Notes under the pieces: model-generated
The model's input: the letters and a program-made list of their open reading frames with translations, nothing else
What the model was told of the DNA's origin: nothing
Database searches by the model: none
Shown: piece by piece, positions 956-4,710 of the stretch
Position numbering within the stretch: position 1 is the stretch's first letter
How the letters are laid out: every line of letters starts with the position of its first letter
DNA from: a virus
DNA: 34,799 nucleotides
IMG/VR virus record: IMGVR_UViG_3300036760_000232
Coordinates: 1 to 34,799 of that record
Strand: one strand, 5' to 3'
Made by a program: the position numbers and the translations under genes

Positions 956-1273
956 GTGGGCGCGCCCAAGCCCTCCAGGTACAACAGGGCCTCGCCTGCT
1001 CGCCGCGCGACGTCACACTCGGTGGAAAGAAAGCAACCGCGCAGATGCAGCAATTGCTAGATCAGATCAAGGCTCAGGTTGAAACCGCGCGGTAGTAGAT
1101 CAGATGTCCGCCATCAACTCCGATAGCGTGCTCTGCTTGTATCGCCGCATTTTTTGGCGGCATGGCCCAGGTGCTTGCTGCAAAGGCTGATGTTGAGAAG
1201 GCAAAGGAAGAATGGAATGGAAAAGGCCGGGGGAGGTTTTAGCCGAACATCTCCCGGCCTAATCGCAGTGAAC
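956..1273. other. Intergenic region with no convincing gene
   Basis: No reading frame with a start, ribosome site and sensible composition was found. Two short protein-like runs without usable starts are present on the plus strand: one ends at about 1095 (…MQQLLDQIKAQVETAR, stop) and one ends at about 1242 (…MAQVLAAKADVEKAKEEW…, stop). They could be remnants of one decayed gene. A GC-rich hairpin lies at 1225-1259. This gap plus 1365-1512 is the largest non-coding area of the genome and is a candidate location for a replication origin, but no iterons or AT-rich unwinding element were seen. Confidence 0.5.
1225..1259 (-). terminator. Possible leftward terminator hairpin
   Basis: GGCCGGG at 1225-1231 pairs with CCCGGCC at 1253-1259, with two more pairs after a 2-base bulge. 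On the minus strand the stem is followed by TTTTCC, a weak U-tract. It would end transcripts from the 2106-1631 leftward genes before they reach the zinc-ribbon promoter. Confidence 0.35.
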
Positions 1274-1364
1274 GCGGGCGCGGCGAAATTGGCAGCCGCA
1301 GCCGATCTGGGATCGGCTGACGGATAATTCCGTCGTGGGGGTTCAATTCCCCCCGCCCGCACCA
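1274..1364 (+). tRNA. Class II (leucine-like) tRNA with positional anticodon TGG
   Basis: A complete cloverleaf reads directly. Acceptor stem GCGGGCG/CGCCCGC is perfect. The D arm GCGAAATTGGCAGCCGC is leucine-like and contains the invariant GG. The anticodon stem GCCGA/TCGGC has a 7-base loop TCTGGGA. The long variable arm GACGGA-TAAT-TCCGTC places it in class II. The T arm is GGGGG-TTCAATT-CCCCC, with discriminator A and encoded CCA. By position the anticodon is TGG (1308-1310), a proline anticodon on a leucine-type body. Position 33 is C instead of the near-universal T, and position 8 is C instead of T. It could be a relaxed or altered tRNA-Leu(TAG) derivative, a missense tRNA, or a non-functional relic. 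Confidence 0.85.
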
Positions 1365-3132: not shown

Positions 3133-4591
3133 CGACGGGACGACTGACATCGGCTTTGGTGGGGCGCGCGGCGGGGCAAAGTCTGGTGGTGGCCGGCGGT
3201 GCATGCTGCTGCGCCGGTTCAATTACGCCAACACTGCGGGGCTCATTCTGCGGCGAACTTTCCCAGAACTCTACAAATCCCACATTGTGAAGCTGTTCGA
3301 GGAATTCCCAGAGATTCGGCCCTGGTACAACGAGCAGCGCAAGGAAGTGGTATTCCCGAACGGCTCACGACTGTTCTTTGGCTCTGCCGAGCACGAAGCG
3401 GACATGAACGCCTTCTACTCCTCAGAATTCGCGGACATTATGCCGGATGAGGCGCAGGAGTTTTCCGAATCGGAACTCAACAAGCTGCGCGGCTCGAATC
3501 GCTGCACATCCAACCGTGACATCACCCCAAAGATGATCTACACCTTCATGCCAGGCGTAGGCCGTGGCCTCTCCTACCTGAAACGCCTCTTCATTGATAA
3601 GCAGTTCCAGCCCGAGGAAGGGCGTCGCAAGTGGGCTTTCGTGCAGGCATTCAGCTGGGACAACATCGAGTGGGCGCGTAAGGAGCTGGAACGCGACGGC
3701 GTGAGCGAGTCTCAGTTCTACGCCTGGCCAGAAGCTCAGAGACGTGACTACTTCATCAACCGCACGGAGTACGGTGCCAACCTTGCCTCCCTGACCGATG
3801 AATACCTGCGGGACGCGTGGCTCTACGGCAAGTGGAATGCCTTCGAAGGGCAGGTCTTTCCCGAATTGCGGGATGAGATTCACAACCTCGACAACTTCGC
3901 GCCGCCGAACTGGAAGCCGCCACTCTCTAAGCTGGTGTCGGCAATGGATTGGGCGGACTCAGGCGTCGCTGCTCTGCTGGGCACGGCTGTGGACCCGGAA
4001 GAGAACCTCTACGCGCTGCGCGAGTACTACGACCGCAACAAGACAGTGACCGAGCATGCGGCCAATGCTACGGGCCTGCTGGCCGAACTCGGACCACAGG
4101 ACTACACGCTCATGGATTTACCGGTCAACAACATCAACCAGCAGAACCTGTTCTCGATTCAGGATGCGTTTCGACGTGCCGGGCTGCATACGATCCAAGC
4201 GCACCGCGCCAACATCCAGATTGGCCTTGACCTGCTGAAAGAGATGCTGCGGGTTGACCCGAACCGCGTGCACCCCTTCACGCAGCAGCTGGGAGCACCA
4301 CGGCTGTTCATCTCGCGGCGCGGCTGCCCTAACCTGTGGAAAGAGGCGACGGAGCTACAGCGGGCGATTGACGCGGAGACGGGCAAAGTGAAGTACGTAG
4401 GCGCAGACCACGCGGTAGATGATCTCCGGTATATCGCTATGAGCCGCCCGAAAGCTCCAGAGCGGGCGAAGCTGGCCCCGAGCAACCTGCCCGTGTTCAC
4501 GTTTGACCAGAAGATTGCGGGCAGTCTGGGCAAGTTTGATAAGACGTTCGGGCGAGACCCGAGCGAAAACTCATGGTGGCCGAAGGCGTGA
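3074..4591 (+). CDS. terL: Terminase large subunit, 505 aa
   Basis: Packaging motor ATPase and headful or end-cutting nuclease. Walker A is GGARGGAKS (about residues 29-37). Walker B is FADIMPDEAQE (D125, E126). The RNase H-like nuclease half shows its acidic residues at D292 (SAMDWADSG), D348 (TLMDLP) and D450 (DHAVDDLRY). The start is the TTG at 3074, four bases after GGTGGAG. This places it inside the small-subunit gene and implies coupling. Length and motif order are normal for the family. Confidence 0.95.
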   Translation: MELKIRLQPKQSALWKLWDDDGTTDIGFGGARGGAKSGGGRRCMLLRRFNYANTAGLILRRTFPELYKSHIVKLFEEFPEIRPWYNEQRKEVVFPNGSRLFFGSAEHEADMNAFYSSEFADIMPDEAQEFSESELNKLRGSNRCTSNRDITPKMIYTFMPGVGRGLSYLKRLFIDKQFQPEEGRRKWAFVQAFSWDNIEWARKELERDGVSESQFYAWPEAQRRDYFINRTEYGANLASLTDEYLRDAWLYGKWNAFEGQVFPELRDEIHNLDNFAPPNWKPPLSKLVSAMDWADSGVAALLGTAVDPEENLYALREYYDRNKTVTEHAANATGLLAELGPQDYTLMDLPVNNINQQNLFSIQDAFRRAGLHTIQAHRANIQIGLDLLKEMLRVDPNRVHPFTQQLGAPRLFISRRGCPNLWKEATELQRAIDAETGKVKYVGADHAVDDLRYIAMSRPKAPERAKLAPSNLPVFTFDQKIAGSLGKFDKTFGRDPSENSWWPKA

Positions 4592-4710
4592 GATTGATCG
4601 TTCTGGTGCTGATCGTGGTGCTGACTACGGCGTGTCCGGTGGATCGTCACTGCATCCGTCTGCCGGACGGCGAAGTAGCCTGCCACGAGTTTGACCCGAA
4701 GCTGCCATAA
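4588..4710 (+). CDS. Small lipoprotein-like peptide, 40 aa
   Basis: GTG overlaps the terminase stop (GTGA). A hydrophobic run MRLIVLVLIVVLTTAC ends in a lipobox-like LTTAC, followed by about 25 polar residues with two further Cys. This predicts a membrane-anchored lipoprotein of the host envelope. Spanin outer subunits look like this, but the gene is far from the lysis cluster, so the role is open. An upstream ATG at 4573 in the same frame would add five residues. Confidence 0.55.
   Translation: MRLIVLVLIVVLTTACPVDRHCIRLPDGEVACHEFDPKLP

Follow-up and report, generated by a model that had tools for sequence, protein, structure and literature searches.

Leucine- and serine-type tRNAs with proline or alanine anticodons recur in IS1595-family transposons and occur in a phage record

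Introduction

tRNAs that join the body of one amino acid's tRNA to the anticodon of another have been described in several organisms. In Streptomyces, tRNA-ProA and tRNA-ProX are reported as dual-identity tRNAs shown to mistranslate sense codons; they combine a proline body with an alanine, asparagine or threonine anticodon and often lie beside a gene for an unusual prolyl-tRNA synthetase (ProRS) (PMC10365949). Allo-tRNAs, reported from Clostridia, Proteobacteria and Acidobacteria, have 12-bp acceptor branches of 8/4 or 9/3 architecture and are thought to use the anticodon-blind seryl-tRNA synthetase (SerRS) (PMC7609411). A yeast tRNA-Ser engineered to carry a proline anticodon causes missense at proline codons by way of an anticodon-blind synthetase (PMC6827378), and the CUG-Ser tRNA of Candida and its relatives represents a natural sense-codon change in which one identity is joined to another amino acid's anticodon (PMC11415595). 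Mistranslating tRNAs of swapped identity are so far known from a few chromosomes (Streptomyces, yeasts).

Here we analyse a tRNA gene in a window of 34,799 nucleotides, which is the whole stretch of DNA under study and an entire IMG/VR virus record (IMGVR_UViG_3300036760_000232), together with its relatives. Like the Streptomyces tRNAs, these tRNAs draw body and anticodon from different amino acids; unlike there, the body is of the leucine (or serine) type, the anticodon belongs to proline or alanine, and transposons and phages serve as carriers. No synthetase gene was seen among the neighbours scanned. Allo-tRNAs are likewise unusual bacterial tRNAs and partly overlap in host range, but the tRNA in the window has the 7/5 arrangement. 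The engineered yeast tRNA-Ser follows the same logic as the present family, although it is a laboratory construct, delivers serine and operates in a eukaryote; one relative found here (L342), a natural serine-bodied tRNA with a UGG anticodon, is its counterpart. The Candida tRNA reflects a nuclear codon change in a eukaryote and is not a gene of a mobile element. Among known systems, the Streptomyces tRNA-ProX family and the allo-tRNAs come nearest; each has another kind of carrier and departs from the present tRNAs in body, anticodon or architecture.

On the carrier side, IS1595-family insertion sequences share with the elements described below a PF12762 and PF12760 transposase, inverted ends and an 8-bp target duplication. 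They differ in that we found no tRNA passenger described for them in the titles and abstract openings of the open-licence literature, which likewise yielded no phage tRNA with a leucine body and a proline anticodon; the window, for its part, lacks such a transposase. Phages of the tRNA-dependent-lysogeny type also carry a tRNA gene, but theirs matches the isotype of the host and complements the gene that is broken (PMC10865867), whereas the anticodon in the window is mismatched to the body.

Results

Structure of the tRNA gene in the window

The sequence and ARAGORN agree on one intact class II tRNA gene of 91 nt with the anticodon TGG (Table 1), called Pro(TGG) by ARAGORN and the sole tRNA in the record. 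An earlier note, made from the letters of this DNA, had described a leucine-type body (D arm, long variable arm, A73 and encoded CCA) that carries TGG at positions 34-36 of the loop TCTGGGA, with C33 and C8. The body was confirmed by sequence, ARAGORN and fold, and the loop and the two unusual bases by sequence and ARAGORN. Every stem is perfectly paired, and the predicted fold was far better than that of shuffled sequences (z -5.9; 0 of 200 shuffles as good). The long variable arm, the D arm and A73 are those of tRNA-Leu; because positions 34-36 read UGG, without A35, and no register of the loop spells a leucine anticodon, the gene was not filed as a tRNA-Leu.

Table 1. Features of the tRNA gene and its upstream flank, in window coordinates.
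Feature	Position	Strand	Basis or remark
Class II leucine-type tRNA gene, UGG (Pro) anticodon, CCA encoded	1274..1364	+	sequence, ARAGORN, fold
Acceptor stem, 5' strand, 7/7 paired with 1354-1360	1274..1280	+	sequence
C8	1281..1281	+	sequence; T in 25/26 family alignment rows
Anticodon arm GCCGA-TCTGGGA-TCGGC	1301..1317	+	sequence, fold
Anticodon stem, 5/5 paired	1301-1305 with 1313-1317	+	sequence
Anticodon loop TCTGGGA	1306-1312	+	C33 1307, TGG 1308-1310, G37 1311
Long variable arm, 6-bp stem, class II mark	1319..1334	+	sequence, fold
T arm, 5/5 paired	1337..1353	+	sequence
A73 discriminator and encoded CCA	1361..1364 (A73 1361, CCA 1362-1364)	+	sequence
GC-rich hairpin just upstream of the tRNA	1222..1261	.	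fold, z -3.6

The anticodon loop has a further peculiarity, which the earlier note did not contain. U32-A38 and C33-G37 can pair, giving a predicted 8-bp helix capped by a UGG triloop, and the predicted fold places this form 4.0 kcal/mol below the open seven-base loop. The hairpin upstream lies 12 nt 5' of the tRNA and is followed by TTTT on the minus strand, so that it is terminator-like for leftward transcription; a search of the plus strand 5' of the tRNA gave no sigma-70-like promoter. An Rfam scan of the window at gathering scores gave no match. A relaxed scan returned a below-threshold tmRNA match that coincides exactly with 1274-1364 (28.5 bits; gathering 47). We rejected a tmRNA identity on this score, the length of just 91 nt and the ARAGORN call, and read the match as a tRNA with a long variable arm picked up by a related model.

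The surrounding phage record

The record is that of a phage, with small and large terminase subunits, portal, major head protein, endolysin, helicase and methyltransferases; 1.7 kb separates the tRNA from the large terminase gene downstream of it. Proline codons in 17 ORFs of the window include CCA as an ordinary codon (92 of 435). No integrase occurred among the 30 window proteins scanned (from 215 mechanical ORFs). Eight related phage loci were retrieved through the terminase (44-63% identity), and neither ARAGORN nor the family model detected a tRNA of any kind in them. The earlier note had allowed that homologous phages might carry a normal tRNA-Leu, with a sequencing error in this copy; these loci offer no such homologue, and the independent recurrence of leucine-bodied UGG tRNAs described below makes an error unlikely.

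One related phage, L007, has an IS1595 transposase fragment (4186-4611) upstream of its terminase, without a tRNA. In the window, two pairs of direct repeats flank the tRNA (921-964/2192-2235, 44 nt, 84%; 891-908/1630-1647, 18 nt, 94%). They lie in stretches without clear genes, are absent from the eight related loci, and could represent promoters or operators of the phage or scars of recombination.

Recurrence of leucine-bodied tRNAs with unexpected anticodons

We searched IMG/VR and bacterial genomes with a pattern that required Y33-TGG in register downstream of a leucine-type D arm. The pattern occurred at 57 places in IMG/VR, 15 of them with a full cloverleaf; L045 was discounted as it has no tRNA-like T loop, leaving 14. 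Bacterial genomes gave at least 118 places, at least six of them cloverleaf-valid, and among the matches listed the bearers belong to Acidobacteriota, Gemmatimonadota, Planctomycetota and one Acetobacteraceae genome. Chance as the source of the window tRNA was rejected in view of its perfect stems and these recurring relatives.

Control scans of the viruses with other anticodons returned 4 cloverleaf-valid leucine-bodied tRNAs among 21 pattern matches for UCC, none beside a transposase, and none among 22 for UGC in the same D-arm context. UGG is thus not the sole odd anticodon on leucine bodies, and a claim of selection for UGG alone in viruses at large loses force. Among the matches listed, the viral scan also gave many leucine-bodied tRNAs with asparagine, aspartate, glycine, histidine, serine or stop anticodons, some of them in tRNA arrays, and these count against a narrow UGG reading. 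Among those listed and fetched, L241 is the only one with an IS1595 transposase match.

Residence in IS1595-family transposons

Counted on the loci as fetched, some of which end close to the tRNA, a transposase was present at 8 of the 14 viral UGG cloverleaf loci, against 0 of 43 other pattern loci (Fisher p 2e-6); for the genome loci among the matches listed, the figures were 5 of 6 cloverleaf-valid loci against 0 of 112 others (Fisher p 3e-8). All four transposases scanned against Pfam (L041, L122, L071 and L033) have both the DDE_Tnp_IS1595 and the Zn_ribbon_IS1595 domains. Of 24 distinct loci examined, 13 are elements in which transposase and tRNA lie together between inverted ends (consensus CGGrAnTrTGnACTT) bordered by a perfect 8-bp target duplication (L041, L122, L071, L035, L095, L056/L384, L131, L342, L340, L353, L357, L359 and L370), where loci representing the same place were counted once (L056/L384, L041/L337, L122/L339, L035/L338, L033/L368, L022/L388 and L052/L367). 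None of 30 random positions had paired ends at 15/20 together with an 8/8 duplication. Since the ends and duplications enclose both genes, the tRNA is transposon cargo and not a chance neighbour. Most relatives of the window tRNA are therefore cargo inside IS1595-family transposons, a link that is absent from the earlier note.

The tRNA of L021 lies in a different element of 1,128 bp, with identical 20-bp ends (GGTAGTGGGTCAGTTTGAAA) and a perfect 8-bp duplication, and there is no IS1595 transposase in its record. The same ends were observed at L334 in an Acidobacteriota genome (G168), where a 167-bp stretch (1461-1627) bounded by GGTAGTGGGTCAGTTTGAAA/GGTAGTGGGTCACTCTGATG, with flanks alike at 6 of 8 bases, holds little besides a broken-looking tRNA-Leu-like gene.

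A complementary search started from the transposases (alignment A1, built from those at UGG loci) and was blind to tRNAs. The best 80 of 237 viral relatives were examined for tRNAs; among Acidobacteriota genomes, 6 of 149 matched one transposase at E 1e-60. This search gave eleven tRNAs near a transposase that the anticodon pattern had missed, with the anticodons UGG (six: L342, L352, L353, L357, L370 and L376), UGC (three: L340, L359 and L360) and AGG (two: L354 and L377). None has a leucine anticodon, and all eleven have G35 where tRNA-Leu has A35. As they came from a search blind to the anticodon, the anticodon is not what selects these relatives. The tRNA of L342 has a serine-type body with G73 and UGG, and L352 has a second, serine-like tRNA with CGC besides its UGG tRNA. 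Most of the best 80 viral relatives have no such tRNA, and none was found at six IS1595 loci from 36 plasmid records.

In a tree of 95 transposases, the tRNA bearers account for 23 of 38 rows in one supported clade (99/97) and for 0 of 44 rows in its sister clade (100/96). The bearer label covers 24 rows and was assigned from the earlier tRNA and transposase results; one labelled row, L430, is doubtful as its tRNA (L066) lies at the other end of the record. The label changes 11 times along the tree by gain or loss (at least eight by starred branches), so that the tRNA may have been lost, captured more than once, or overlooked where loci were cut. The tRNA is kept across transposases down to about 40% identity.

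Other cargo of the elements

The smallest elements, L370 (1,787 bp), L342 (1,921 bp) and L357 (2,128 bp), contain the transposase, the tRNA, one small ORF and little else. The small protein has a coiled-coil-like start and a winged-helix-like end, with weak Pfam matches to winged-helix or HARE-HTH families, and its ORF adjoins the tRNA in L041, L122, L342, L357 and L370. By a profile of eight such proteins picked by eye, whose matches to those eight are circular, a similar ORF also adjoins the tRNA in L019 and L126, where the DNA fetched contains no IS1595 transposase, and no partner gene of this kind was detected in the window. The sole match below 0.01 outside the profile's own eight was L450 (E 4e-5), a viral contig in which a leucine-bodied tRNA with the glycine anticodon UCC overlaps or lies beside the matching ORF (about 940-1485).

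Larger elements carry additional genes, including an NYN nuclease-like gene (L071) and an AlbA_2/Schlafen-type gene (L035). HTH-ImmA/IrrE genes that PADLOC classes as RmrA-like were observed as IS1595-element cargo in L353 (2521-3624) and L095 (6292-7398). When anticodon arm and remaining element were compared for antisense pairing, L071 showed a 20-nt stretch of 90% complementarity; such pairing was rejected, as the 16-nt scores over 13 elements (11-14 of 16) look like chance.

Place of the window copy in the family

We aligned the window tRNA with its relatives (alignment A2, 26 rows including the window) and built a family model, R1, from these rows; the window tRNA, itself among the 26, scores 84.1 bits against it. 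Pairing is maintained through two-sided changes, with 98.3% of cells paired and a covariation of 0.792; shuffled versions gave 0.189 and slid alignments no more than 0.150. The long variable arm is kept and A73 is present in 25 of the 26 rows. The window copy has the class II body and one of the three anticodons (UGG, UGC or AGG) by which the group is defined, and its nearest sequences in the fetched set are L027 (81%), L122 (78%) and L041 (76%), a small margin over the best ordinary tRNA-Leu (75%). Just 5' of the 3' strand of the D stem, the window, L041, L122, L021, L027 and L057 share C in place of the A found in 30 of 32 ordinary tRNA-Leu genes.

C8 is peculiar to the window; position 8 is T in the other 25 rows and in 54 of the 55 ordinary tRNA-Leu genes that ARAGORN called in the fetched loci. 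C33 occurs in six rows (window, L033, L022, L095, L067 and L354), with U33 in the remaining 20. All six C33 rows have G30-A31 and U39, a combination found in just one of the U33 rows (L360).

A protein search of the window record gave no IS1595 transposase, and near the tRNA we found neither the end motif at up to two mismatches nor paired ends with a duplication; placement within an IS1595 element was accordingly rejected. An element of the L021 type was not accepted either, as the best window match to its ends has six mismatches. An IS1595 transposase is also missing from the records of L019, L027, L057 and L063, so that residence in such an element is common but not universal among leucine- or serine-bodied tRNAs with proline or alanine anticodons. 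Lacking transposase, ends and duplication, the window copy is either a stand-alone phage member of the family or a leftover.

Discussion

Leucine- and serine-type tRNAs with proline or alanine anticodons form a recurrent family, whose members other than the window copy lie mostly inside IS1595-family transposons. Leucyl-tRNA synthetase (LeuRS), in bacteria, and SerRS ignore the anticodon. The preservation of leucine features with UGG, UGC or AGG fits charging by an anticodon-blind synthetase, and the two body types recruited, leucine in most members and serine in L342, are both served by such enzymes. Bodies and anticodons so combined are what a missense tRNA would look like. We therefore propose, with a confidence somewhat short of even, that the window tRNA, a stand-alone phage member of this leucine/serine-type family, acts as a missense RNA, charged with leucine and reading CCA. 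Further points in favour are the intact fold, the pairing preserved across the 26 rows, the lack of any leucine anticodon among the eleven tRNAs of the transposase-based search, the persistence of the tRNA across divergent transposases, the scant other cargo of the smallest elements, and the nearest relatives of the window copy, which belong to the family. The RNA would be transcribed and matured, host LeuRS would attach leucine, the charged RNA would read CCA and perhaps other CCN codons, and a fraction of proline codons would be translated as leucine during expression of the element or phage. C33 together with C8 is poor for an elongator tRNA, and these bases and the closable loop should lower decoding by the window copy. 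G36-G37 is the recognition mark of TrmD; methylation of G37 by this enzyme would prevent pairing with C33, so that the loop stays open.

The earlier note had suggested counting CCA codons at conserved leucine positions of phage proteins. In the terminase, the sole window protein compared, nine CCA codons align with proline in 35 homologous cells and with leucine in none, and the transposases adjoining UGG tRNAs use CCA with no convincing position at which it stands for leucine. These codon patterns count against leucine at CCA, which such comparisons have not supported so far, and the negative promoter search upstream of the tRNA also weighs against the missense proposal. Leucine at a carrier's own conserved CCA codons is expected only if the carrier relies on missense, and the terminase gives no sign of this. 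The combination of leucine body and proline anticodon is thus real and recurrent, in relatives that keep their leucine features, while the leucine-at-CCA part of the original reading finds no signal in the phage terminase.

A broader version of the missense proposal, which we hold more tentatively and regard as doubtful, is that a deep lineage within the IS1595 family carries, as a conserved functional component, a tRNA that uncouples amino acid from codon, and that these transposons, and phages like the present one that acquired the tRNA, mistranslate proline or alanine codons on purpose. Such missense might disturb host proteins, unlock the element's own gene expression or serve as an addiction device. 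If this is true, programmed mistranslation would be a mobile trait, a horizontally spread missense code carried as transposon or phage cargo with two body types and a narrow set of anticodons, and annotation tools would be listing its genes as plain tRNA-Pro or tRNA-Ala. We found no functional test of any family member in the open-licence literature; the smallest elements, at 1.8-2.1 kb and encoding just a transposase, a single tRNA and a single small protein, lend themselves to direct laboratory test.

Somewhat unlikely, in our judgement, is that the gene encodes a non-decoding mimic, a stable tRNA-shaped RNA that is charged or bound without reading codons. Such a mimic may decoy a nuclease that cuts tRNAs in defence or as a toxin, or may be the RNA partner or a regulator of the transposon's small coiled-coil/winged-helix-like protein. 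The closing of the window arm to a triloop (ddG -4.0), C33 in six rows and C8 in the window are in keeping with this, as are the nuclease-, toxin- or defence-like cargo of some elements (the NYN, AlbA_2/Schlafen-type and RmrA-like genes of L071, L035, L095 and L353) and the seven loci at which the small ORF adjoins the tRNA. A pure decoy, however, would need neither the U33 of 20 of the 26 rows nor an open loop, and 20 of the 26 loops cannot form the triloop through 32-38 and 33-37 pairs. The restriction to UGG, UGC and AGG also speaks against a mimic, and the window has no partner gene by the profile used.

The window tRNA may instead be a decaying leftover that arrived with a transposon or from a relative phage, lost its partners and is drifting without present function, which we regard as distinctly unlikely. 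The missing transposase, ends and target duplication, the eight related phage loci without a tRNA and the C8 found in no other row would be explained in this way. Decay is harder to reconcile with stems that are all perfectly paired and with the intact A73 and CCA. C33 alone is not a mark of decay, as five relatives have it too, each together with G30-A31 and U39, and one of these (L095) lies in a complete element.

An ordinary phage tRNA-Pro, charged by ProRS and endowed by chance with a long variable arm, is very improbable. G35 and G36 are ProRS determinants, and both are present in the UGG anticodon. Bacterial tRNA-Pro, however, is a class I tRNA with a short variable loop and C1-G72, whereas the window tRNA has a leucine-type D arm, a class II variable arm and G1-C72, and its nearest ordinary relatives are tRNA-Leu genes. 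A phage tRNA may substitute for a host copy that the phage disrupts, but retention of the gene through integration in a host tRNA-Leu gene, as an attP piece or for tRNA-dependent lysogeny, is already disfavoured and scarcely probable, since the lysogeny system needs the isotype of the broken host tRNA (PMC10865867), a leucine body with UGG cannot replace a tRNA-Leu, and no integrase was among the 30 window proteins scanned.

Besides the missense candidates, viral contigs show a wider habit of odd anticodons on leucine bodies. Class II leucine-bodied tRNAs with asparagine, aspartate, glycine or histidine anticodons, some of them inside tRNA arrays, were observed on 13 viral contigs (L189, L190, L191, L207, L212, L238, L240, L242, L244, L262, L275, L278 and L281). 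Three more (L234, L258 and L299) carry leucine-bodied tRNAs with the stop anticodons CTA or TTA, which are likely suppressor tRNAs. In genome G009, which also holds the L122 element, a tRNA array at L335 (1488-1566) includes a tRNA with a leucine-type D arm and a loop that ARAGORN reads as ccaa.
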